Source of the DNA: a bacterium
Lineage (GTDB): Bacteria > Actinomycetota > Aquicultoria > Aquicultorales > Aquicultoraceae
Reading direction: 5' to 3'
Assembly (NCBI GenBank): GCA_902810715.1
Contig: CADDYS010000001.1
Span: 1-64,000 of the forward strand
DNA length: 64,000 nt
Position numbers and translations under genes: made by a program
The notes under the pieces: generated by a model
Told to the model about the DNA's origin: nothing
The model's input: the letters and a program-made list of their open reading frames with translations, nothing else
The model's database searches: none
Shown here: one piece after another, positions 1,324 through 42,779 of the stretch
Numbering within the stretch: position 1 is the stretch's first letter
Layout: the number at the start of each line of letters is the position of its first letter

Positions 1324-1351
1324 GCTGGTAAATCGAATACTTGATTATATC

Positions 1352-1516
1352 TAGGTGCCCTAACTGTTGGGAGAATAGGGAAGCCGGTGAGACTCCGGCG
1401 CGGGCCCGCCGCTGTAACGGGGGACGAAGCTTGCAATATGCCACTGTCTAAGAGTGAATACTTAGATGGGAAGGCACAGGCGGTAGAATGATCTCGGAGC
1501 CAGAAGACCTGCCTTG
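1352..1516 (+). ncRNA. cobalamin riboswitch
   Basis: The aptamer shows the standard conserved blocks: AGGTGCC at 1353, GGGAAGCCGGTGAGACTCCGGC near 1379-1400 (entered here only as the G-box core), CCCGCCGCTGTAACGG, and the B12 box GAGCCAGAAGACCTGCC ending near 1513. A terminator follows at 1579-1607 before the coding region, so adenosylcobalamin would be expected to shut off transcription of the gene at 1660. Confidence 0.93.
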
Positions 1517-1578
1517 ATATTGAGCTGTTTCTTTCGTCTGCCAAAGATACGGCAAATGAGGACTTATCTGGTTGGTAA

Positions 1579-15989: not shown

Positions 15990-16010
15990 ATGAGAAAAAG
16001 TATATGTATG

Positions 16011-16100
16011 TACGGGAGCCACTGTTGGTGGCTGAGAGGCTGGGTGTAACCCGGCGACCGTCTGAACCTGATCTGGGCAATACCAGCGAAGGGAACGTGT
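16011..16100 (+). ncRNA. TPP riboswitch (THI box)
   Basis: The conserved parts are all present: GGGAGCC, GGCTGAGAGG, ACCCGGCGACC, GAACCTGATCTGG and the 3' block CAGCGAAGGGAACGTG. A terminator follows at 16108-16141, then the thi4 gene, so thiamine pyrophosphate should switch off transcription. Confidence 0.95.
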
Positions 16101-16107
16101 TAGGTTG

Positions 16108-16141
16108 AAAAACCGTATCGTTTTGCTGGTACGGTTTTTTT
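16108..16141 (+). terminator. TPP riboswitch terminator
   Basis: AAAAACCGTATC pairs with GGTACGGTTTTT over about 12 bp and runs into T residues at 16135-16141. Expression platform of the upstream aptamer. Confidence 0.85.
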
Positions 16142-19731: not shown

Positions 19732-21378
19732 TTGGCGATGGATAAAGCAAGCGAGATCAAGATGGTCGGCCGCTTTACAGCCGAAGAGCTCGAGAAGGCG
19801 CGAGGAGCCATCTTCGATACAGCAATTGACATTATGTATATTTTTGATATCGATAGCTTGAAAATCCTTGATATGAACAGGCAGGGTTTACAAGAACTCG
19901 GCTATACAATAAAGGAAATACGACAGAAAGACTTCTATGATCTTCATGCCATCGAAGAGCGAGCACGGGCCATCGAGATAGTCGATATATACAGGAGAGA
20001 GGGCGAGATTCACAATATCCGCGACCTTCATCTTAGAAGAAAAAACGGAAGCCTTATCCCTGTTGAAAAAAACGGAAGGATTACAGAGGTTAATGGAAAG
20101 CCGATTGCCCACTGAATTTGCCGCGATATAACCCAGCGGATCGAGACAGAGCTTGAGATCCGTAAGAGGGTTGGGGACCTGGAGGCCCTAAAGTCATTTG
20201 CTCTTGATATATCATCTGGCCGGGATAAAAACGAGCTTTTCTATACGATAATTTCTGATACGGCGGATCTTCTTGAGGCTGATGTTGGAGGCATAGGTAT
20301 ACTTAATGAAGAAAGACAGATTATTTCTATCCCCGTTGTATATAACCTGCCGGATGCTCTTATCGGCACTAGTTTTAAGCTTAACTCGGATATTTTTAGT
20401 TTTGCTATTCGTACCGGCCAGGCGCAGCGTGTAGATAATTATCAGGAGGCTCATCTACAGGTAAAAGAATTTGCCGATGCCGGGCTGCTGGCAATGGCCG
20501 TTATACCGCTAAGGGCAAGAGGAAAGATATTAGGAGTCCTTTGGGCCTCCATGTTAAAACCCAAGCGTGTATTCTCCGATTATGATATGACGCTCTTTGA
20601 GTCCATTGGAGGCCAAGCTGCCGTGGCAATAGACAATATTAATCTTTTTGAGGAACAAAGATACATTTCAGAAACGCTTCAACGCGGTTTTCTTCCGAAG
20701 CGGTTACCCGAGTTAAAGAATACCGATATTGGTATATTTTACGCATCGGCAACCGAAGCAGCGGTAGTTGGCGGCGATTTCTATGATATTTTGCAGTCGC
20801 CTAATGATCAAGCAAGCATTTTTGTTGGAGATGTATCCGGCCAAGGGGTTGAAGCAACCACAGACGCAGCGATGGTGAAATATACGCTTAGAGCGGTTTC
20901 TTTTCAAAACCCCGATCCATCACATATATTAACTAAAGCTAACGCCGTTATCGCTAATCAACTTGCAGGCGGACATTTTATTACGCTCGTATATGGTTCT
21001 TATTATCCAGAAAGTGGGCAATTACTTTTGGGTATAGCAGGCCATCCATATCCGCTCTTATACTCGGCAGTTGACAAGCAGGTTACTCCGGTAGTCGGCA
21101 AGGATCCTGCGCTTGCTCTTATCCCGACCTATGAGTACACGAAAACAGAGCTTCGCCTGTCGTCTGGCGATATCCTTGTTTTTTATACAGACGGTATTAT
21201 TGAGCTGCGTCGGGAAAAAGAGTTCTTTGGGATGGAGAGGCTGGGCGATCTTATTATCAAATATTCAGGATTAAAGGCACAAGATATCACCAACAAGATT
21301 ATGGATGATGCCAGGGAGTTTGCGGAAGGTCGTCTAGCCGATGATATCGTTCTTATGGTTATTAAAAGGACAGGTTAA
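19732..21378 (+). pseudogene. PAS-GAF-PP2C (RsbU/SpoIIE-type) phosphatase with an in-frame TGA
   Basis: One continuous frame of 549 codons interrupted by TGA at 20113-20115 (codon 128). Before it is a PAS domain (FDTAIDIMYIFDIDSL); after it come the end of the PAS motif (CRDITQRIE), a GAF domain (about 150-310) and a PP2C phosphatase domain with metal-binding GGDFYDI and GDVSGQGVEA. Such proteins act on anti-anti-sigma factors. The part from the ATG at 20494 could be made as a PAS-less phosphatase. A nonsense mutation is simplest; no Cys is expected at that position, so selenocysteine is unlikely. Start TTG at 19732 or ATG at 19738. Confidence 0.8.
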
Positions 21379-30273: not shown

Positions 30274-30350
30274 TACGTAGAATTTTAGATTAGACTATCT
30301 AAGTGATAGGGTTTTTACTTTGCCTAGCCACCGGAATGTAGTTTTAGCTA

Positions 30351-30379
30351 TTGACAATATACCATACGGGGTATACCAT
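30351..30379 (+). promoter_or_regulatory. dsrEFH promoter with CsoR/CstR-like operator
   Basis: TTGACA at 30351-30356, 17-bp spacer, TACCAT at 30374-30379. The spacer holds ATACCATACGGGGTAT (30359-30374), an ATAC-N8-GTAT dyad with a G run. The same dyad in the same position occurs in the tusA promoter (34576-34591). Dyads of this kind are typical operators of CsoR-family repressors, including the persulfide sensor CstR. Confidence 0.6.
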
Positions 30380-30490
30380 AGTTTTAGATTTACCATTTTC
30401 GAATTATTATTAGTAAAACTATTCTGCTTATTCTTACAGCTAAAGCAATCATTTTATAAGAATAACTGGTTACTTACAAAGGAAGGAGCG

Positions 30491-30853
30491 ATGAGTGTGA
30501 AATTTGGGGTATTGGTTCAAGAAGGACCTTATCACCACCAGTCTTCTGACAGTGCCTATCAGTTTGTAAAGGCTGCCATGGACAAAGGTCATGAAATCGT
30601 GGGAGTGTTTTTCTACCACGATGGAGTTATAAACTCGACTAAATTGACCGATCCACAGCAAGACGATAGGCACATTCAGAAAAGATGGTCTGAGATTGCG
30701 GAGAAAGGTGTCGACCTTGTGGTCTGCATTGCTGCCGCTAAACGCAGGGGGATAAACGACGATGTCCTTGCCCCCGGGTTTAGGATCTCAGGCCTCGGAC
30801 AATTGACTGAAATGGCTATTAAAGCAGATAGATTTGTCAGTTTTGGAGCTTAA
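30491..30853 (+). CDS. dsrE: sulfurtransferase subunit DsrE
   Basis: 120 residues from the ATG behind GGAAGGAG (a longer frame upstream lacks any support). The active-site Cys is in VVCIAAAKRRGI, the DsrE signature. DsrE, with DsrF and DsrH, forms a hexamer that passes persulfide sulfur to DsrC. The set is best known from sulfur oxidisers using reverse Dsr; here it shares the genome with sat, aprBA, qmoABC and dsrMKJOP. Confidence 0.92.
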   Translation: MSVKFGVLVQEGPYHHQSSDSAYQFVKAAMDKGHEIVGVFFYHDGVINSTKLTDPQQDDRHIQKRWSEIAEKGVDLVVCIAAAKRRGINDDVLAPGFRISGLGQLTEMAIKADRFVSFGA

Positions 30854-30873
30854 TTGAAAGGGTGGATAACCTA

Positions 30874-31239
30874 GTGAGTGAACCGACTAAGATGATGTTT
30901 ATGATGCGCAAAGCACCATACGGAACTATCTATTCCTTTGAGGGTCTTGAAGCCGTATTGGTCATGGGCGCATATGAGCAGGATATAAGCCTTCTTTTTG
31001 TAGACGATGGCGTGTATGCGATAAAGAAGGGAATGGATACGTCCCCACTCGGCATCAAGGACTTCTCACCTACGTTTAGGGTTCTTGATGGATATGATAT
31101 CGATAAACTCTACATCGATAAGGAGTCAATGGAGGCGAGGGGTCTTACGCTGGATGACTTTGTTGTTGAGCCTGAGGTTTTAGACAAAGAGCAGATAGCC
31201 AAACTGATGGAAGAGCAGGACGTTGTATTCCCATTCTAG
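30874..31239 (+). CDS. dsrF: sulfurtransferase complex subunit DsrF
   Basis: About 121 residues. Start GTG at 30874 lies 8 nt after AAAGGGTGG; GTG at 30862 overlaps that site. The FMMRKAPYGTIYSFEGLEAVLVM segment (quoted in part) and DGVYAIKKGMD mark the DsrF/TusC family, which has a structural role and no catalytic Cys. Second gene of dsrEFH, 20 nt after dsrE. Confidence 0.9.
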   Translation: MSEPTKMMFMMRKAPYGTIYSFEGLEAVLVMGAYEQDISLLFVDDGVYAIKKGMDTSPLGIKDFSPTFRVLDGYDIDKLYIDKESMEARGLTLDDFVVEPEVLDKEQIAKLMEEQDVVFPF

Positions 31240-32984: not shown

Positions 32985-34238
32985 CTAAGCGCCGAGCGTC
33001 GGATCTTTGTCGACGTACTTGCCGCAGAAAGGCATGGTTGAATCGCCAAGATGCCTGCCCGGAAGCAGAGCGTTCCAGTACAGCCAACCGAATGCCTTCT
33101 TGCCGTACCAGTTCATCTTGGTGTCTTTAAGTAGCGACATCGGGCCCCACTCATATGGGAATTTGCCATGCTGAGGTTCAACTTTGTAGTTGAAATCGAT
33201 CAAAACGGAGCTTCCAGCCCCGGTAACGATAAATCAGGTTGCATGGCCATCGTAGAGCGGCATCGCCACACCACCGCAGATCTCGCTCAGGATATTGTAG
33301 AGCACGACCTCTACCTCGTAATGGACGACAGAACCGGCCTTTGAGGTAGGAACGTTTGTTGCATCTCCCAACACATAGACGCGCTCATGTTTTTTGGCCT
33401 GCAAGGTGTTATGGTCTGTTGGAACATAACCCATACCATCATCTATACCTGAATCACTGATGGCCTTATCGCCAACAATTGTTGGAATCGAGACCAGCAG
33501 GTCGTAGTTAATTCTGTCACTGGCCTGCATGTTTTCGATCCATTTTTCCTTGGCATTTACGGTACCTAAACCCCAGTTGGCAGTTATATTGATGTTCTTC
33601 TGCTCTGCAATCTTGTTCAGAACCGCGGTAGCTTTTGGCTTCGTGAAAGCACCCGGGCCCGGGGTTATAAAGTGGATGTCTACCTTGTTGCGAATTCCTC
33701 TCTTCTTAAAGTACCAGTCCGCCAGGAACGAGAACTCAAGAGGTGCAACAGGGCACTTAATAGGCAAGGCGGAGATATCAACAACCAGTTTACCGCCCTG
33801 GAATTGCTTTAAGGCCTTACCAAGCTCGATAGAGCTCTCAAGGTTGTAGAACGTGAAAGCGTTTTTACCCATTGCCTCCGGGAGTCCCTCGTCCTCGTTT
33901 GGATCCGGGTTGCAACCGGTGCTGATAACTAAAAAGTCGTAAGGGAATACCTTACCGCTCTTAGTCGTAACCTTCTTGTTCTCGGTGTCGATGTTTGCAA
34001 CCTCGTCTTGGACGAAGTTTATGCCAGGTTTGAAAAACTTGTTCCTGGGCTTAACGATTTTTTTGGGGTTATCGAGACCAAAAGGCACCAGAAGCATGCT
34101 TGGCTGGTAGATGTGCCGGTTGTCTCTGTCGATTACAGTGATATTCCATTTCTCCTTCGAAAGCTCATGCCTGAGCTTGTTGGAGAGCATGGTACCGCCG
34201 TTGCCACCCCCTAGAATAAGAATGTTTTTTGTTGCCAT
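32985..34238 (-). CDS. sulfide:quinone-oxidoreductase-like flavoprotein with in-frame TGA (possible selenocysteine 335)
   Basis: A 417-codon frame. The N-terminal FAD fold (ILILGGGNGGTMLSNKL), STGCNPDP with Cys109, and IKCPVAPLEF with Cys162 match SQR-type enzymes that oxidise sulfide and pass electrons to quinone at the membrane. Codon 335 is TGA (33234-33236), then the frame continues with the normal SQR ending (FIVTGAGSSVLIDFNYKVEP ... LYWNALLPGR). The TGA replaces the third redox Cys of the family (Cys350 in Acidianus SQR as I recall; spacing from the second Cys 172 there, 173 here). A hairpin follows the TGA. Selenocysteine is likelier than a nonsense mutation. Ribosome-binding site AGGAG; sulfur-regulon promoter upstream. 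Confidence 0.75.
33206..33222 (-). promoter_or_regulatory. candidate bacterial SECIS hairpin
   Basis: Starting 11 nt after the UGA, CGGGGCU pairs with AGCUCCG (seven pairs, one G-U) around a GGA loop; the GG lies 19-20 nt after the UGA. Bacterial SECIS elements are short hairpins with G in the apical loop at about this distance. It also encodes protein, as expected. Confidence 0.5.
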
Positions 34239-34411
34239 CTCATCGCTCCTTCTAGTTTCCTTCTTCCGCGGTAGACCTGTCCACCTCCATTCCTAAGGAT
34301 TAGTTTTATTTTTACCATTATATTGGTTATTTTGCATATGATAACAGGTAAATGGAAGGGAATAAACCGGGTAAGGATCATTCTATTCTACGTCACCTCG
34401 AAGAAAAAGTA

Positions 34412-35427: not shown

Positions 35428-35856
35428 ATGCCCAGTTTTGTAATCAGAGAAAAATGTGATGGTTGTAAAGGGCAGGACAAGACGGCCTGTATGTATATAT
35501 GCCCGAACGACCTGATGCTGCTCGACAAAGAGATGATGAAGGCTTATAACCAAGAGCCTGAGCAGTGCTGGGAGTGCTACAACTGTGTAAAGATCTGCCC
35601 ACAGCAGGCTATTGAGGTAAGAACCTATGCGGACTTTGCTCCTCTTGGTGCAAGCACCATCCCGATGAGGGGTACTGACTCCATTATGTGGACCATCAAG
35701 TTCAGGAATGGCGTCATTAAGAGATTCAAATTCCCAATCAGGTTAGTACCTGAAGGTTCAGTTGACCCGTATGCAGGGAAGCCAGAGCCGAATTACGATG
35801 ATATAAAGAAACCCGGTCTGTTTACCCAGACGGCTGACCAAGTACTAGTAAAGTAA
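35428..35856 (+). CDS. aprB: adenylylsulfate reductase beta subunit AprB
   Basis: 142 residues, an electron-transfer subunit with two [4Fe-4S] clusters: CDGCKGQDKTACMYICP and CWECYNCVKICP. The C-terminal half wraps around AprA. It receives electrons (from Qmo) and passes them to the AprA flavin for reduction of APS to sulfite and AMP in the cytoplasm. Ribosome-binding site GGGAGG. aprA follows after 12 nt. Confidence 0.96.
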   Translation: MPSFVIREKCDGCKGQDKTACMYICPNDLMLLDKEMMKAYNQEPEQCWECYNCVKICPQQAIEVRTYADFAPLGASTIPMRGTDSIMWTIKFRNGVIKRFKFPIRLVPEGSVDPYAGKPEPNYDDIKKPGLFTQTADQVLVK

Positions 35857-35868
35857 GGGGGAGAGACC

Positions 35869-37854
35869 ATGGAGAAAGAAGTAAACAATTTTCAGTTTGT
35901 CGAAAAGCCGGAAGTTGTAGAAATTGATGCCGATATCTTGATTATCGGTGGCGGTATGTCTGGCTGCGGTACTGCTTTTGAGGCAGCCCGCTGGGCAAAC
36001 CCAAAGGGCTTAAAGGTCGTTATGTTTGATAAAGCAGCGATTGATAGAAGTGGTTCTGTCGCAATGGGTCTTTCAGCCATCAATACCTACATTGGCGAAA
36101 ACGATGTTCAGGATTACGTAAGATACGTAAGAAGCGACCTGATGGGTATCATCAGGGAGGACCTGGTTTGGGACCTTGGTAGGATAGTAGACGACTCCGT
36201 ACAGCTCTTTGAAGAGTGGGGTCTTCCGATTTGGAAGAAAGGCGACGACGGTTTCTCACTCGACGGTTTCCAGGCACGCGATGCCGGTAAGCCATTGTTG
36301 AAAGATGGCGGCGTACCGGTAAGGTCGGGTAAGTGGCAGATCATGATCAACGGTGAGTCCTACAAGGCAATCGTTGCTGAAGCTGCAAAGAAAGCTCTTG
36401 AGACCAACAGGGTAGCAACCGGTATGGACCAGAACCTTTACGAGAGGGTTTTCACCACAAGGTTACTGCTTGATGCAAATGAGCCGAACAGAGTTGCCGG
36501 CGCAATCGCTTTTAGCGTAAGAGAGAACAAAGTCTATGTTGCCAGGGCAAATTCTGTTCTAATTGCAACGGGCGGTGCCGTGAACGTATTTAGGCCAAGG
36601 TCGGTCGGTGAAGGTATCGGCCGTACATGGTTTGGTGTATGGAACGCGGGTTCTGGTTATGCAATGGGTACCCAAGCTGGTGCCGAGCTAACCCTCATGG
36701 AGAACCGCTTCGTCCCAATGAGGTTTAAAGATGGCTATGGTCCGGTAGGTGCATGGTTCCTCTTCTTCAAGGCCAAAGCAACAAACGCTCTTGGTGAGGA
36801 TTACTGTGTGACACATGCTGCTGAAATCAAAGAGATGTATGCTCCGTATGATGAGCCGATGGGGACCGCTCTTAGAAACCACGCTGCAATGCTTGATATG
36901 AAAGCCGGTAAAGGCCCGATCTACATGCATACCGACGTGGCTATGCAAGAGCTTGCAAAGACAATGGATCCAAAGAGGATCAAACACCTTGAGGCAGAGG
37001 CATGGGAAGATTTCCTCGATATGAGTATTTCACAGGCCGGTCTCTGGGCTGCAGATGATGTCGAGCCGGACAAAGTCAAATCCGAGATTATGCCTTCTGA
37101 GCCTTATCTTCTTGGCTCACATGCCGGCTGCGCAGGCTTCTGGGTAAGTGGCCCCGGCGATATCCCGGGTACTCCTGCTGAGTGGTCATGGGGTTACAAC
37201 AGAATGTCAACAGTTAACGGCCTCTTCATGGCCGGCGACAATGTTGGCGCATCCGGACATAAGTTCTCATCAGGCTCACATGCTGAGGGAAGAGCCGCCG
37301 GTAAGGCCATGGTAGCATGGTGTCTCGATCATCCGGATTACAAGCCGACTATCAAAGAGAGCGTCGATGAGCTTGTTGCCGAGATGTATGCTCCAAGAGA
37401 ACTTTACGAGAAGTATCATAACTACACCACTGCTCCGCAAAATGTTGATATTAACCCGCACTACATCGGCCCAAGGATGCTTCAGTTCAGGCTCATGAAG
37501 ATTATGGACGAATATGTAGGCGGCGTTTCAACCTGGTACACAACCAGCAAGACAATGCTGGATGAGGGTCTCAAGAAACTGGCGGTCCTCAAAGAGGATG
37601 CTCAGAGGATGGCCGCAAAAGACCTCCATGAACTTCTCCGTTGCTGGGAGAATTACCACAGGATTTGGGCTGCAGAGGCTCACGCACGTCATATCTACTT
37701 CAGGGAAGAGACAAGGTACCCTGGATACTACTACAGGGGCGATTACCCGAAGATCAACGATGCCGAGTGGAAGTGCTTCAACAACTCGAAGTACGATCCT
37801 GCTACCGGCGAGTGGGTCAACTTCAAGAGGGATTATGTCCAGCTAGTGGACTAG
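35869..37854 (+). CDS. aprA: adenylylsulfate reductase alpha subunit AprA
   Basis: 661 residues of the fumarate-reductase-type flavoprotein family: FAD fold ILIIGGGMSGCGTAFEA, the FDKAAIDRSGSVAMGLSAIN active region, LMENRFVPMRFKDGYGPVGAW and SGSHAEGRAAGKAM near the C-terminal cap. It carries the APS-reducing FAD. Length is as usual for the enzyme. Codons and composition fit the surrounding sulfur genes. A strong terminator follows. Confidence 0.97.
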   Translation: MEKEVNNFQFVEKPEVVEIDADILIIGGGMSGCGTAFEAARWANPKGLKVVMFDKAAIDRSGSVAMGLSAINTYIGENDVQDYVRYVRSDLMGIIREDLVWDLGRIVDDSVQLFEEWGLPIWKKGDDGFSLDGFQARDAGKPLLKDGGVPVRSGKWQIMINGESYKAIVAEAAKKALETNRVATGMDQNLYERVFTTRLLLDANEPNRVAGAIAFSVRENKVYVARANSVLIATGGAVNVFRPRSVGEGIGRTWFGVWNAGSGYAMGTQAGAELTLMENRFVPMRFKDGYGPVGAWFLFFKAKATNALGEDYCVTHAAEIKEMYAPYDEPMGTALRNHAAMLDMKAGKGPIYMHTDVAMQELAKTMDPKRIKHLEAEAWEDFLDMSISQAGLWAADDVEPDKVKSEIMPSEPYLLGSHAGCAGFWVSGPGDIPGTPAEWSWGYNRMSTVNGLFMAGDNVGASGHKFSSGSHAEGRAAGKAMVAWCLDHPDYKPTIKESVDELVAEMYAPRELYEKYHNYTTAPQNVDINPHYIGPRMLQFRLMKIMDEYVGGVSTWYTTSKTMLDEGLKKLAVLKEDAQRMAAKDLHELLRCWENYHRIWAAEAHARHIYFREETRYPGYYYRGDYPKINDAEWKCFNNSKYDPATGEWVNFKRDYVQLVD

Positions 37855-37868
37855 TAAGACAAAAATTC

Positions 37869-37900
37869 TCCAGGCGCCAATCAGGCGCCTGGAGAAACTT
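37869..37900 (+). terminator. aprBA terminator
   Basis: CTCCAGGCGCC pairs with GGCGCCTGGAG (11 bp) around AATCA, followed by AAACTTTTAT. The qmo genes downstream have their own operator, so the two operons are at least partly separate. Confidence 0.8.
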
Positions 37901-37945
37901 TTATATTTCAAACGGTGCTTCGATACCATTTTTTTACATGTATAT

Positions 37946-37985
37946 TGTAACAAATCTTACATTTGTCCGCGAGTTATTGTATAAT
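37946..37985 (+). promoter_or_regulatory. sulfur-regulon operator before qmoABC
   Basis: TGTAACAAATCTTACA (37946-37961) differs from the SQR palindrome at two positions. A TATATT box ends at 37946; alternatively the dyad overlaps a -35 (CTTACA) with TATAAT at 37980-37985, 18 bp on. The geometry thus differs from the other four. The leader also has an 8-bp stem (TGGAGCAT/ATGCTCCA, 38015-38054). Confidence 0.6.
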
Positions 37986-38138
37986 TTGCTTGGCTTAGAG
38001 ATTGGCTTTAAGTTGGAGCATGGATTATAGATGACCTCAGACTCTATGCTCCAGTTAGAACATAGATTCTTAGATTGATGAGTCATTACTTGTTGTTGTG
38101 ATGCATGCCTTGATACTAGTCACAACTGGGAGGAACAG

Positions 38139-39404
38139 ATGACAGAAGAAAAAAGCTTAGGAAGTATTCTAGTTGTCGGAGGGGGGATAAGTGGTTTAAC
38201 GACCGCGATAGAAGCTGCGGAGACAGGCTACGATGTCTACCTTATAGAAAAGACTCCTTCGATGGGTGGAAGAGTAGCTCAGCTAAACCAGTATTTCCCG
38301 AAGCTCTGTCCACCGACATGCGGTCTGGAGATTAACTACCAGAGAATCCGCAAAAACCAAAAGGTTAAATACCTAACCCTGTCTGAGGTAGAAAGTATCT
38401 CAGGCCAGCCGGGGGACTACGAAGTTACCGTCAAGGTTAACCCCCGCTACGTTAACGAAAACTGCACGAACTGCAATGCGTGCACTGAAGTATGCCCGGT
38501 TGAAAGGCCAAATGACTTTAACTTTGGCATGGACACCACAAAGGCAGTCTACCTACCGCATCAGATGGCTTTCCCGATGAGATATGTGATTGACGGAAAA
38601 GCCTGTAAGGGGGCCGATTGCGGAAAGTGCGTCGAGGCATGTAAATACAACGCTATTGATTTAAATATGCAACCCGAGACGATCACCTTAAAGGTCGGCT
38701 CGGTGGTTTATGCAACCGGTTGGGACCCGTACAACCCCGCCAAAATGGATAACCTGGGGTATGGCAGAGTAAGCAACGTCATCACAAACATGATGATGGA
38801 AAGGTATGCTGCCAAGAATGGGCCCACGGGTGGCCAAATTGTAAAACCATCCAACGGTGAGGCCCCACAGAGCATAGCGTTCATTCAGTGCGCAGGCTCA
38901 AGGGATGAAAATCACCTCTCCTATTGCTCATATATCTGCTGCATGGCTTCGTTTAAGCAGGCGACCTATATCAGAGAGCAATACCCGGATGCAAAAATTT
39001 ACGTATACTACATCGATCTCCGTGCTCCAGGCAGGTATGAGAAATTCCTTAACAAAGTGGAGAGCGATGAGAATATCGAATTCATAAAAGGTAAGGTAGC
39101 CAGGATCGAAGAGGACCCCGAGACCGGACAAGTGATCGTCGAGGCTGAAGATATATTTGGCGGTGGGAAAATACACCAAAAGGTCGATCTTGCAGTGCTG
39201 GCTACCGGAATGCAGCCAACAACCGCTGAGTCAAAGTTGCCCGGCGATCTCAAGTATGATGAGAACGGGTTAATATTGGAAGACGAAAGTACGGTAGGGG
39301 TTTATGCCGCCGGTTGTGCTAAGAAGCCGGCCGATGTTACCACCAGCGTAAAGGACGCTACCGGATCGGCGCTGAAGGCTATTCAAACTATGGTGAGGAG
39401 GTAG
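38139..39404 (+). CDS. qmoA: quinone-interacting oxidoreductase subunit QmoA
   Basis: 421 residues, an HdrA-like flavoprotein with FAD fold ILVVGGGISGLTTAIEAAE, the GRVAQLNQYFPKLCPPTCGLE segment, and cysteine clusters CTNCNACTEVCPVE and CKGADCGKCVEACKY. With QmoB and QmoC it moves electrons from the quinone pool to AprBA, possibly by flavin-based confurcation. It is separated from qmoB by 4 nt. Ribosome-binding site GGGAGGAA. Confidence 0.94.
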   Translation: MTEEKSLGSILVVGGGISGLTTAIEAAETGYDVYLIEKTPSMGGRVAQLNQYFPKLCPPTCGLEINYQRIRKNQKVKYLTLSEVESISGQPGDYEVTVKVNPRYVNENCTNCNACTEVCPVERPNDFNFGMDTTKAVYLPHQMAFPMRYVIDGKACKGADCGKCVEACKYNAIDLNMQPETITLKVGSVVYATGWDPYNPAKMDNLGYGRVSNVITNMMMERYAAKNGPTGGQIVKPSNGEAPQSIAFIQCAGSRDENHLSYCSYICCMASFKQATYIREQYPDAKIYVYYIDLRAPGRYEKFLNKVESDENIEFIKGKVARIEEDPETGQVIVEAEDIFGGGKIHQKVDLAVLATGMQPTTAESKLPGDLKYDENGLILEDESTVGVYAAGCAKKPADVTTSVKDATGSALKAIQTMVRR

Positions 39405-39408
39405 CGCT

Positions 39409-41553
39409 GTGGAGAAGAAGTTTGGTTTATATATCTGCACAGGCTGTGGTATAGGGGAAGCCTTAGATATCGAGAAACTAGCAAATATGGGCCCGCAACT
39501 GGGAGCTGCGGTCGTTAAAACCCACGAGTTTCTATGCGGCGACCAGGGCGCTCAGATGATAAAGAGCGACATCCAAAATGAAGGGGTTAACACTGTAGCC
39601 ATAGCGGCCTGCTCACCCAGGGTAAACTTTGACGTATTTAACCTCCCCGGTGTTATTACCGAGAGGATAAACCTAAGGGAGCATGTAGTATGGTCCCACA
39701 CCCCGAATGACGAAGACACCCAGATGCTCGCCGCGGATTATATCAGGATGGGTTCGGCGAAGGTTAAGAAGATGGAACTGCCCGAGCCGCATGTCGAAGA
39801 CGATATTTCAAGGACCGTGCTTGTTATCGGCGGCGGTATTACAGGCATAACCGCCGCGCTGGGGGTAGCAAAAGCCGGCTACGAGGCGGTAATCGTTGAG
39901 AAAGAGCCCCAACTTGGCGGCTTCATGAACAAGATGTATAAGAAACTCCCTACTAGTTGGCCGTTTGAAAAGGTTGAGGAGACCGGCATTGATGCTAAGG
40001 TTCAAGAGGTAACAAGCAACCCGAATATCAAGGTCTACACATCGGCCACCGTCGAGGCAATCGCCGGCCAGCCGGGTAAGTTTGACGTAACCATCGGCAC
40101 GAACGGCGGGCCGGTTGAGACACAAATCGGCTCGGTAGTTTTGGCGACCGGCTGGAAGCCATACGACGCATCGAAGCTCGAATCCTATGGGTACGGGCAA
40201 TATCCAAACGTAGTAACCAACGTGATGTTTGAGGAAATGGCGAAAAACGGCCAGTTGACACGCCCATCAGACGGCAGGCCGGCCAAGAACGTCGCGTTTA
40301 TACAGTGCGCGGGGCAAAGAGATGAAAACCATCTGCCGTACTGCTCATCGGTCTGCTGCGCGACATCGCTCAAGCAGGCGACATACGTGCGTGAGAAGGA
40401 CCCAAACGCCAAGGCGTACATATTCTATAAGGACATGAGAACACCCGGCCAGTACGAGCTCTTCTATAAGAGCGCGCAAAATGACACGGGTATCTTCCTT
40501 ACAAAAGGAAACGTTACCAATATAGCCGAGGACGCCTCAAACAATCTGCTTCTTGAGGTTGAGGATACGTTACTTGGGGGTCCGCTAAGTGTGTCCGCAG
40601 ACTTACTGGTTCTGGCAACCGGTATGGTCCCGACGACGGCGGATGAGGCGATTCTAAATCTGCAATACAGGCAAGGCCCGGGATTACCTGACCTTGAGCT
40701 TTTCAACGGGTTTGCCGATTCAAACTTTATCTGCTTCCCGTATGAGACAAGAAGGACCGGCGTATACTCAGCGGGTGTTGTTAAGATGCCGCAGACCATT
40801 GCCGAGAGCGTCGATGACGCAACCGGCGCTGCGCTTAAGGCAATCCAGGTAATCGAGTCCGTTGCGGTCGGTAGGGCGGTTCACCCAAGAGCCGGAGACG
40901 AGACCTATCCCGAGTTCTTCCTCCAGAGATGTACACAATGTAAGAGGTGTACTGAAGAGTGCCCGTTTGGGACTCTTGATGAGGATGAGAAGGGCACGCC
41001 GAAACCAAATCCGAACCGTTGCAGAAGATGCGGTATCTGCTTGGGAGCCTGCCCGGAGAGGATCATCTCGTTCAAGAACTACAGCATCGATATCGTGGCC
41101 TCGGCAGTCAAATCAATCGATGTGCCGGGCGAGGAAGAGAACAAGCCAAGGGTTTTAGCATTTGTTTGCGAAAACGATGCGTATCCGGCGTTTGATATGG
41201 CCGGAATCAACCATGTTACTTATGACCCGAACATAAGGATGATTCCTGTAAGATGCCTTGGCTCGGTCAACACGGTGTGGGTCGCAGACTCGCTCTCAAA
41301 CGGTATTGACGGAATCCTTATGATAGGTTGCAAGTACGGCGATGATTACCAGTGCCACTTTGCTAAAGGTAGCGAGCTTGCAAGCTACAGAATGAGCAAG
41401 GTTCAGGAAACACTTAACAGACTTGTGCTGGAGTCTGACAGGGTTCAGATTATACAGCTTGCTATAAATGAGTACGATCAGATACCGAGCATCGTGAACG
41501 GGTTTATGGAAAAAATCCAGGAGATTGGTCTCAATCCCTATAAAGGCTTCTAG
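39409..41553 (+). CDS. qmoB: quinone-interacting oxidoreductase subunit QmoB
   Basis: 714 residues from GTG at 39409. HdrA-like FAD domain (VLVIGGGITGITAALGVAKAG), then two [4Fe-4S] motifs (CTQCKRCTEECPF, CRRCGICLGACPE), then an MvhD-like C-terminal domain (from about 585; FVCENDAYPAFDMAG, RCLGSV, IGCKYGDDYQCHF). This fusion is typical of QmoB. qmoC follows after 5 nt. Confidence 0.94.
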   Translation: MEKKFGLYICTGCGIGEALDIEKLANMGPQLGAAVVKTHEFLCGDQGAQMIKSDIQNEGVNTVAIAACSPRVNFDVFNLPGVITERINLREHVVWSHTPNDEDTQMLAADYIRMGSAKVKKMELPEPHVEDDISRTVLVIGGGITGITAALGVAKAGYEAVIVEKEPQLGGFMNKMYKKLPTSWPFEKVEETGIDAKVQEVTSNPNIKVYTSATVEAIAGQPGKFDVTIGTNGGPVETQIGSVVLATGWKPYDASKLESYGYGQYPNVVTNVMFEEMAKNGQLTRPSDGRPAKNVAFIQCAGQRDENHLPYCSSVCCATSLKQATYVREKDPNAKAYIFYKDMRTPGQYELFYKSAQNDTGIFLTKGNVTNIAEDASNNLLLEVEDTLLGGPLSVSADLLVLATGMVPTTADEAILNLQYRQGPGLPDLELFNGFADSNFICFPYETRRTGVYSAGVVKMPQTIAESVDDATGAALKAIQVIESVAVGRAVHPRAGDETYPEFFLQRCTQCKRCTEECPFGTLDEDEKGTPKPNPNRCRRCGICLGACPERIISFKNYSIDIVASAVKSIDVPGEEENKPRVLAFVCENDAYPAFDMAGINHVTYDPNIRMIPVRCLGSVNTVWVADSLSNGIDGILMIGCKYGDDYQCHFAKGSELASYRMSKVQETLNRLVLESDRVQIIQLAINEYDQIPSIVNGFMEKIQEIGLNPYKGF

Positions 41554-41558
41554 GGGGT

Positions 41559-42779
41559 ATGAAGATGTCAGAACAAGAGTTCTTTGTTGAACCTGATTTA
41601 AATTTTATAAAGGATGTACAAAGGGCGGGAGGCGGCGATCTTAAGAAATGCTTCCAGTGTGCGACATGCTCGGTTGTTTGCAACGTAACGCCCGATGATA
41701 GTCCATTTCCAAGAAAAGAAATGATCTGGGCTCAGTGGGGTCAGAAAGAGAAGCTCATGAGCGACCCCGATGTATGGCTTTGCCACCAGTGCAACGACTG
41801 CACGGCAAACTGCCCAAGGGGCGCAAAACCCGGCGATGTTTTTGCCGGAATAAGAAGCGCGTCTATAAAGGCATTTGCATTCCCGAAGTTTATGGGTACA
41901 TTGCTTAGCAGCCCGGGTATGGCGATATTCGCCTGGGCCATACCGATAGTTATATTGCTTATCATGATAAGCTTATTCCCGACAATCTATTCAATCTTGC
42001 CGCACAATCTAGACCCGCATAGCTTCTTCGGAGAACTCGTCAACGAATTTAAGGTCGCTGGCTGGGGTAATATGCCTGCCGGTCCGATAAAATGGACGAA
42101 TTTCTATCCCGAGCTTGGTATCGATATGACGTTTATAACCTTGCTAACTTTAGGGATAATATCTTTAGCCGTAGGTCTTTATAGGTTTTGGAACACCATG
42201 AAGGAGAACCATGGTGAGATGGGTCTAATGGGGGCTCCAGTTCCTAACCTGCTGGCGGCGGTGCCGACCATTTTCGCACACAAAAAATTTATGGAGTGCG
42301 ACGAGAGCAAAAACAGGTACTACGGTCATCTTGGTGTTTTCTACGGATTTGTTGGTGCTTTTGTAACCACTGCTTTTGTTGCAAGCCAGTTCTGGCTTCT
42401 TGGTATGAAGACCCCATATGGGCAAATAAGCCACGTTAAGTTTCTTGGAAACTTAAGTGCGGCGGCGATTATTATAGGCGGCCTCGTGCTCCTGGTTCAA
42501 AGAGCTACCTATAAAAAGAGCGTAAGCAGCTACTTTGATTGGACACTCATAGTGCTGGTGCTGGGCCTTGGCGTAACCGGTCTTGGCACCGAGCTGGTCA
42601 GGTTGGCTGATCTAAAGTCTATAGCTTATCCAACATACTTTATCCACCTGACCTTTGTAGCCTACTTGTTTCTGTATTTGCCGTTCTCAAAGATGGCACA
42701 CCTGGCGTATAGAAGTGTAGCCATGACATTTGCAAGGCAAGCGCAGAGGGATTTAGTATCGGCGGAGGAAATAGCTTAG
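41559..42779 (+). CDS. qmoC: quinone-interacting oxidoreductase subunit QmoC
   Basis: 406 residues. The N-terminal ~120 are HdrC-like with two [4Fe-4S] motifs (CFQCATCSVVCNVTP, CHQCNDCTANCPRG); the remainder is a NarI-like membrane part of about six helices with conserved histidines for b hemes. It takes electrons from menaquinol. Many Gram-positive sulfate reducers replace QmoC by HdrBC, so a full QmoC is informative. A GGGGG-type site precedes the ATG. Confidence 0.94.
   Translation: MKMSEQEFFVEPDLNFIKDVQRAGGGDLKKCFQCATCSVVCNVTPDDSPFPRKEMIWAQWGQKEKLMSDPDVWLCHQCNDCTANCPRGAKPGDVFAGIRSASIKAFAFPKFMGTLLSSPGMAIFAWAIPIVILLIMISLFPTIYSILPHNLDPHSFFGELVNEFKVAGWGNMPAGPIKWTNFYPELGIDMTFITLLTLGIISLAVGLYRFWNTMKENHGEMGLMGAPVPNLLAAVPTIFAHKKFMECDESKNRYYGHLGVFYGFVGAFVTTAFVASQFWLLGMKTPYGQISHVKFLGNLSAAAIIIGGLVLLVQRATYKKSVSSYFDWTLIVLVLGLGVTGLGTELVRLADLKSIAYPTYFIHLTFVAYLFLYLPFSKMAHLAYRSVAMTFARQAQRDLVSAEEIA

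Follow-up and report, generated by a model that had tools for sequence, protein, structure and literature searches.

The locus and its genes

The window analysed here, a 64-kb stretch of DNA from a member of the Aquicultoraceae (Actinomycetota), harbours a gene termed SQR1 that encodes a type III sulfide:quinone oxidoreductase (SQR)-like flavoprotein. The frame of SQR1 contains a single in-frame TGA, codon 335, which lies in the context DGHAT-TGA-FIVTGAGSS, and is terminated by TAG; a ribosome binding site precedes the ATG start (Table 1). Divergently oriented aprB, aprA and qmoA, qmoB, qmoC-like genes, the latter named according to their domain make-up and order, and two DsrE/DsrF-like genes are found in the neighbourhood. 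The window also includes a gene for a PAS-GAF-SpoIIE phosphatase with an in-frame TGA of its own, as well as two riboswitches, and a divergent SQR paralog, SQR2, is encoded on another contig of the same genome.

The frame of SQR1, its TGA and the flanking residues, Cys109, Cys162 and the spacing of 173 residues between positions 162 and 335 all agree with the original prediction, which was made from this sequence and proposed that the UGA encodes selenocysteine (Sec).

Table 1. Genes, codons and RNA elements discussed in the text. Positions refer to the window unless another contig or locus is given.
Feature	Position	Strand	Remarks
SQR1, type III SQR-like flavoprotein gene	32985..34238	-	417 codons including one predicted Sec codon
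TGA codon 335, predicted Sec	33234..33236	-	corresponds to the catalytic Cys379 of human SQOR (339 in the chain, plus 40)
Cys162 codon	33753..33755	-	counterpart of Cys201 in human SQOR; proposed to pair with Sec335
SQR1 ribosome binding site AAGGAG	34246..34251	-	7 nt upstream of the ATG start
Putative bacterial SECIS hairpin	33206..33222	-	7 pairs, GGA loop, begins 11 nt after the TGA
aprB, aprA, qmoA, qmoB, qmoC-like genes	35428..42779	+	Pfam matches; divergent from SQR1
Two DsrE/DsrF-like genes	30320..31239	+	Pfam PF02635
PAS-GAF-SpoIIE (PP2C/RsbU-type) phosphatase gene	19738-21378	+	in-frame TGA at 20113-20115
Cobalamin riboswitch	1336-1530	+	over the Rfam gathering score
TPP riboswitch	16002-16111	+	over the Rfam gathering score
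SQR2, divergent SQR paralog	G000:C44:9638-10687 (locus L049, 1495-2646)	+	383 codons

Family assignment and redox residues of SQR1

SQR1 matches the NCBIfam model NF049943 (type III sulfide quinone reductase, selenoprotein subtype) over its full length with 613.8 bits, the curated cut-off being 525 bits. This score is not diagnostic for Sec, since Cys-containing homologs also exceed the cut-off (about 595-680 bits). The GHAT-TGA sequence fits the HxxU motif of the family, where an in-frame UGA occupies the column of the catalytic Cys. At the N-terminus, ILGGGNGG represents a GGGxGG dinucleotide motif, and the protein matches the Pfam family Pyr_redox_2, which stands for the FAD/NAD(P) fold with two dinucleotide-binding domains. 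The best relatives in the PDB are chains of human SQOR, aligned with an E-value of 2.7e-48 over residues 5-396 (approximately 390 residues). In this alignment Cys162 and residue 335 correspond to chain residues 161 and 339, which a construct offset of 40 turns into Cys201 and Cys379, the redox pair of the human enzyme.

Cys162 is invariant among all SQR homologs examined. Cys109 is kept in the Chlorobiaceae, the Deferribacteres and many Desulfobacterota forms, and other homologs have V, S, T, N or A in its place. The original prediction had built on three cysteines in SQR enzymes; the TGA is indeed found at the column of the catalytic C-terminal Cys, but the argument from three cysteines is dispensable. 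Cys109 is not a general third SQR cysteine, and the relevant pair is predicted to comprise Cys162 and Sec335.

Conservation of the TGA codon

An alignment of homologs, suggested along with the original prediction, revealed TGA in the SQR1 genes of all eight Aquicultoraceae genomes whose copy extends to codon 335, the window genome included. Seven of these copies are complete, and for them the position at the same codon was confirmed; the eighth is a C-terminal fragment (genome G004). In the sister lineages Chlorobiaceae and Deferribacteres the column is Cys, encoded by TGC or TGT, and most Desulfobacterota have Cys there as well; the sequence on either side of the column is conserved. The orthologs carrying TGA stem from independent assemblies, show 64-94% identity and belong to several genera. 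The genome is a metagenome-like assembly of 153 contigs, where a sequencing or assembly error might have turned TGC or TGT into TGA, a concern raised with the original prediction; the identical codon in independent genomes of such divergence effectively rules this out and leaves a negligible probability.

According to the standard code the open reading frame ends at codon 334, and the TGA might be a true stop codon, yielding a 334-residue protein and leaving the downstream similarity as a relic. However, purifying selection persists for about 80 codons past the TGA in five pairwise comparisons (dN/dS 0.06-0.11 where estimable), the TGA is fixed in several genera without any other stop codon or frameshift downstream, and a truncated protein would lack its C-terminal part along with the catalytic residue. 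We therefore consider a true stop very improbable. A slightly smaller probability still is assigned to the reading of UGA as one of the standard amino acids, for instance Trp or Cys, by suppression or a change of the code, which would likewise account for the open frame past the TGA. UGA is the normal stop of 9 of the 39 long genes in the window, where TGG is used 153 times; moreover, the TGA coincides precisely with the position of a redox cysteine, and the genome encodes SelA, SelB and a dedicated tRNA-Sec. A global reassignment of UGA was rejected, since the codon is in use as a stop.

The putative SECIS hairpin

The hairpin downstream of codon 335 has the seven pairs, the GGA loop and the position that were originally described. 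Considered alone it offers weak evidence (z about -1.8 to -2.0), and it was rejected as sole proof of Sec, since a perfect stem of at least seven pairs follows 8% of the TGA triplets found in the window. The hairpin goes beyond chance because it is kept in the TGA-carrying orthologs and not in the Cys homologs. Six distinct Aquicultoraceae TGA sequences retain 5-7 of the seven pairs, corresponding to 90.5% of pair cells, compared to 43-50% in a control where the partner strand was slid, and two pairs show compensatory changes among the TGA carriers. The Cys homologs of the Chlorobiaceae and Deferribacteres form 0-1 of the seven pairs.

The Sec decoding machinery

A search for the Sec decoding genes, also suggested with the original prediction, identified selA (621 bits), selB (399 bits) and selC, the gene for tRNA-Sec (76 bits, anticodon TCA), together on contig C119 of the same genome, but nothing over the cut-off for selD in this assembly, where the top match lies in a 356-residue ThiL-like gene beside thiamine genes. 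The missing selD likely reflects an assembly gap at the edge of contig C119, since selD is located just upstream of selA in relatives such as G007, and the contig starts 41 nt before selA. In most relatives selD itself contains an in-frame TGA, an indication that the class routinely decodes Sec. Searching the relatives by pattern for SECIS elements of selD returned spurious frames only. One related genome, G006 (locus L020/L055), keeps the TGA in SQR1 and in the PAS-GAF-SpoIIE gene; neither selB nor selD was found in this assembly of 97% completeness, probably due to a missing contig.

The originally predicted Sec at position 335 is strongly supported by the Cys column, the family-wide TGA, the presence of selA, selB and selC, the conserved coding sequence after the TGA and the kept hairpin. 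From this evidence we infer, with a probability of roughly 0.93, that the UGA at codon 335 of SQR1 is decoded as Sec, which replaces the catalytic Cys. Decoding would be carried out by SelA, SelB and tRNA-Sec in concert with the downstream hairpin.

A second SQR paralog with a predicted Sec

SQR2 carries a TGA in the same catalytic column as SQR1 (GHVI-TGA-PVL) and is followed by a DUF1641 gene. Its score against NF049943, 356.8 bits, is below the cut-off. The TGA is found in five genomes (G000, G001, G003, G004 and G007), and Cys versions occur in G006 (TGC) and in a second copy of G007. The downstream hairpin retains 6-7 of seven pairs in the TGA carriers versus 4-5 in the Cys versions, a weaker contrast than for SQR1. 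This paralog is undescribed.

Within one genus, the TGC form of SQR2 at locus L079 (G006, contig C25) and the TGA form at locus L049 share 90% protein identity, and two hairpin pairs are broken in the TGC form. The comparison of the two genes points to a recent exchange of Sec for Cys, or the reverse, in SQR2.

Relation to known selenoproteins and probable independent origin

The original prediction held that no Sec-containing SQR had been described. This is incorrect: NF049943 is a selenoprotein SQR family, which a 2026 review lists with the motif HxxU (PMC13188914). The review also cites the deep-Sep prediction of a Sec-containing NAD(P)/FAD-dependent oxidoreductase in Desulfosediminicola (PMC12013277). 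Sec-SQR is thus already described computationally, and SQR1 joins a known selenoprotein family as a new member, matching it over the full length and with the same Sec position (HxxU; GHATU in SQR1). Another Sec flavoprotein of the Pyr_redox_2 superfamily, the CoA-disulfide-reductase-like selenoprotein (TIGR03385, UGxP motif; Table 1 of PMC13188914), represents a different family with a different Sec motif, and SQR1 reaches 39.8 bits against its cut-off of 578.8.

Among 395 genomes of the Desulfobacterota, 28 contain NF049943 matches over the cut-off; about one third of these matches have one TGA, which occupies the same column as in SQR1 where checked. Compared to these Sec-SQRs, SQR1 derives from a different phylum and falls into a separate clade. 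The hairpins differ as well: in the Desulfobacterota Sec forms they start about 17 nt after the UGA and have a GGUC-type loop, whereas the SQR1 hairpin starts after 11 nt and has a GGA loop.

On a tree of 74 SQR proteins, Cys and Sec must have been exchanged at least five times, and well-supported branches force at least four of these changes. The Sec forms fall into three separate groups, namely Aquicultoraceae SQR1, a Desulfobacterota clade and the second Aquicultoraceae paralog, and the SQR1 clade is sister to the Cys forms of the Chlorobiaceae and Deferribacteres. A single clade of SQR1 and the Desulfobacterota Sec forms was rejected in the AU test (p 5e-23), and so was a single clade of SQR1 and the second Aquicultoraceae Sec paralog (p 3e-41). 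The Sec form of Aquicultoraceae SQR1 probably originated independently from those of the Desulfobacterota. The tree might also be explained by an old Sec-containing ancestor of the SQRs followed by repeated losses of Sec, an explanation that is disfavoured, as the hairpin positions differ between the Aquicultoraceae and the Desulfobacterota forms.

Genomic context and proposed function of SQR1

The association of SQR1 with sulfur genes recurs in related genomes: aprBA and/or qmoA are also found near SQR1 in the loci L020, L024, L028 and L029, and DsrE/DsrF-like genes in L020, L021 and L029. Aquicultoria are reported to encode a full Dsr pathway and to be probably strict anaerobes (PMC10591310). 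Given its aprBA, qmoABC-like and DsrE-like neighbours, SQR1 appears to belong to dissimilatory sulfur metabolism, where it may contribute to sulfide disposal or to balancing of the quinone pool.

Could SQR1 be a selenoenzyme of the same fold with another activity, such as a persulfide or CoA-disulfide reductase? The breadth of Pyr_redox_2, weak matches to CoA-disulfide reductases and the adjoining sulfate-reduction genes would allow for this. Yet SQOR, the best structural relative, aligns along 390 residues including both redox positions, and NF049943 carries the name SQR III. Furthermore, the Sec is immediately followed by Phe336, the counterpart of Phe357 in A. ferrooxidans SQR, a residue of the quinone site (PMC9666304). 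Another activity thus seems unlikely, albeit clearly less so than any of the alternatives to Sec decoding discussed above. SQR1 is most probably a type III sulfide:quinone oxidoreductase, predicted to be membrane-associated.

The reaction of SQOR starts with the attack of sulfide on the sulfur bridge of the redox pair, after which a persulfide is formed on one residue, and the thiolate of the other reduces FAD and, subsequently, quinone is reduced. By analogy, sulfide would attack a sulfur-bridged Cys162/Sec335 pair, the sulfane sulfur would stay on selenium, and electrons would pass via the Cys162 thiolate to FAD and then to quinone. Selenium at position 335 may serve as a sulfur acceptor and donor of lower pKa and higher speed. 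The archaeal type III enzyme SqrC from Caldivirga maquilingensis, which has been characterised biochemically (cited in PMC9666304), presumably has Cys where SQR1 is predicted to have Sec. SqrC is an FAD enzyme whose conserved C-terminal redox residue lies beside a quinone-site Phe (Phe337), an arrangement also predicted for SQR1. In human mitochondrial SQOR (PDB 6oi5, 8dhk) both redox residues are Cys, in contrast to the C162/U335 pair of SQR1.

A candidate selenoprotein of the PAS-GAF-SpoIIE type

A scan of the window for TGA codons flanked in both directions by long open frames identified the PAS-GAF-SpoIIE phosphatase gene. Its TGA is located at the same codon in 10 of 10 orthologs from nine genomes (including the window copy, to which the others are 53-82% identical) and lies inside an invariant H-U-I-C motif (HUICRD). 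The corresponding column is Cys in the nearest PAS homologs (QCTCRDIS, QCICRDVS) and mostly Ser in more distant ones. The window copy has no in-frame start for 126 codons after the TGA, and the sequence past the TGA is under purifying selection (pN/pS about 0.2-0.4). AlphaFold predicts a PAS fold, where the Sec would be placed in the last strand, immediately ahead of the signalling helix; the mean pLDDT is 82, the other four models being much less confident. The closest folds are LOV and FixL PAS domains. A search of viral contigs for relatives of the gene found none.

No PAS or SpoIIE selenoprotein is listed in the review catalogue (PMC13188914). The nearest report concerns a peroxiredoxin-PP2C fusion in ocean metagenomes, the selenoprotein part of which is the peroxiredoxin (PMC2398784). 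On the basis of its sequence, the PAS-GAF-SpoIIE gene probably codes for an undescribed selenoprotein, and it is likely more novel than SQR1 within the window. Perhaps the protein is a UxC redox sensor that controls the phosphatase.

Implications

SQR1 extends NF049943, a selenoprotein family known by computation only, to a new phylum. The Sec enzyme of the Aquicultoraceae and its Cys-containing sister of the Chlorobiaceae are about 60% identical and provide a pair for measuring the effect of selenium on sulfide oxidation. We regard the chances as even that the catalytic Sec of type III SQRs was gained at least three times, once in the Desulfobacterota and twice in the Aquicultoraceae, and may be paired with a Sec-containing redox sensor. 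Should one catalytic residue indeed have switched repeatedly from Cys to Sec, this would offer a clear example of convergent chemistry. If confirmed, the Sec-PAS phosphatase would represent a kind of signalling selenoprotein absent from the current catalogue, and this sulfur-metabolising lineage may then use selenium both in its sulfide enzymes and in a redox sensor.
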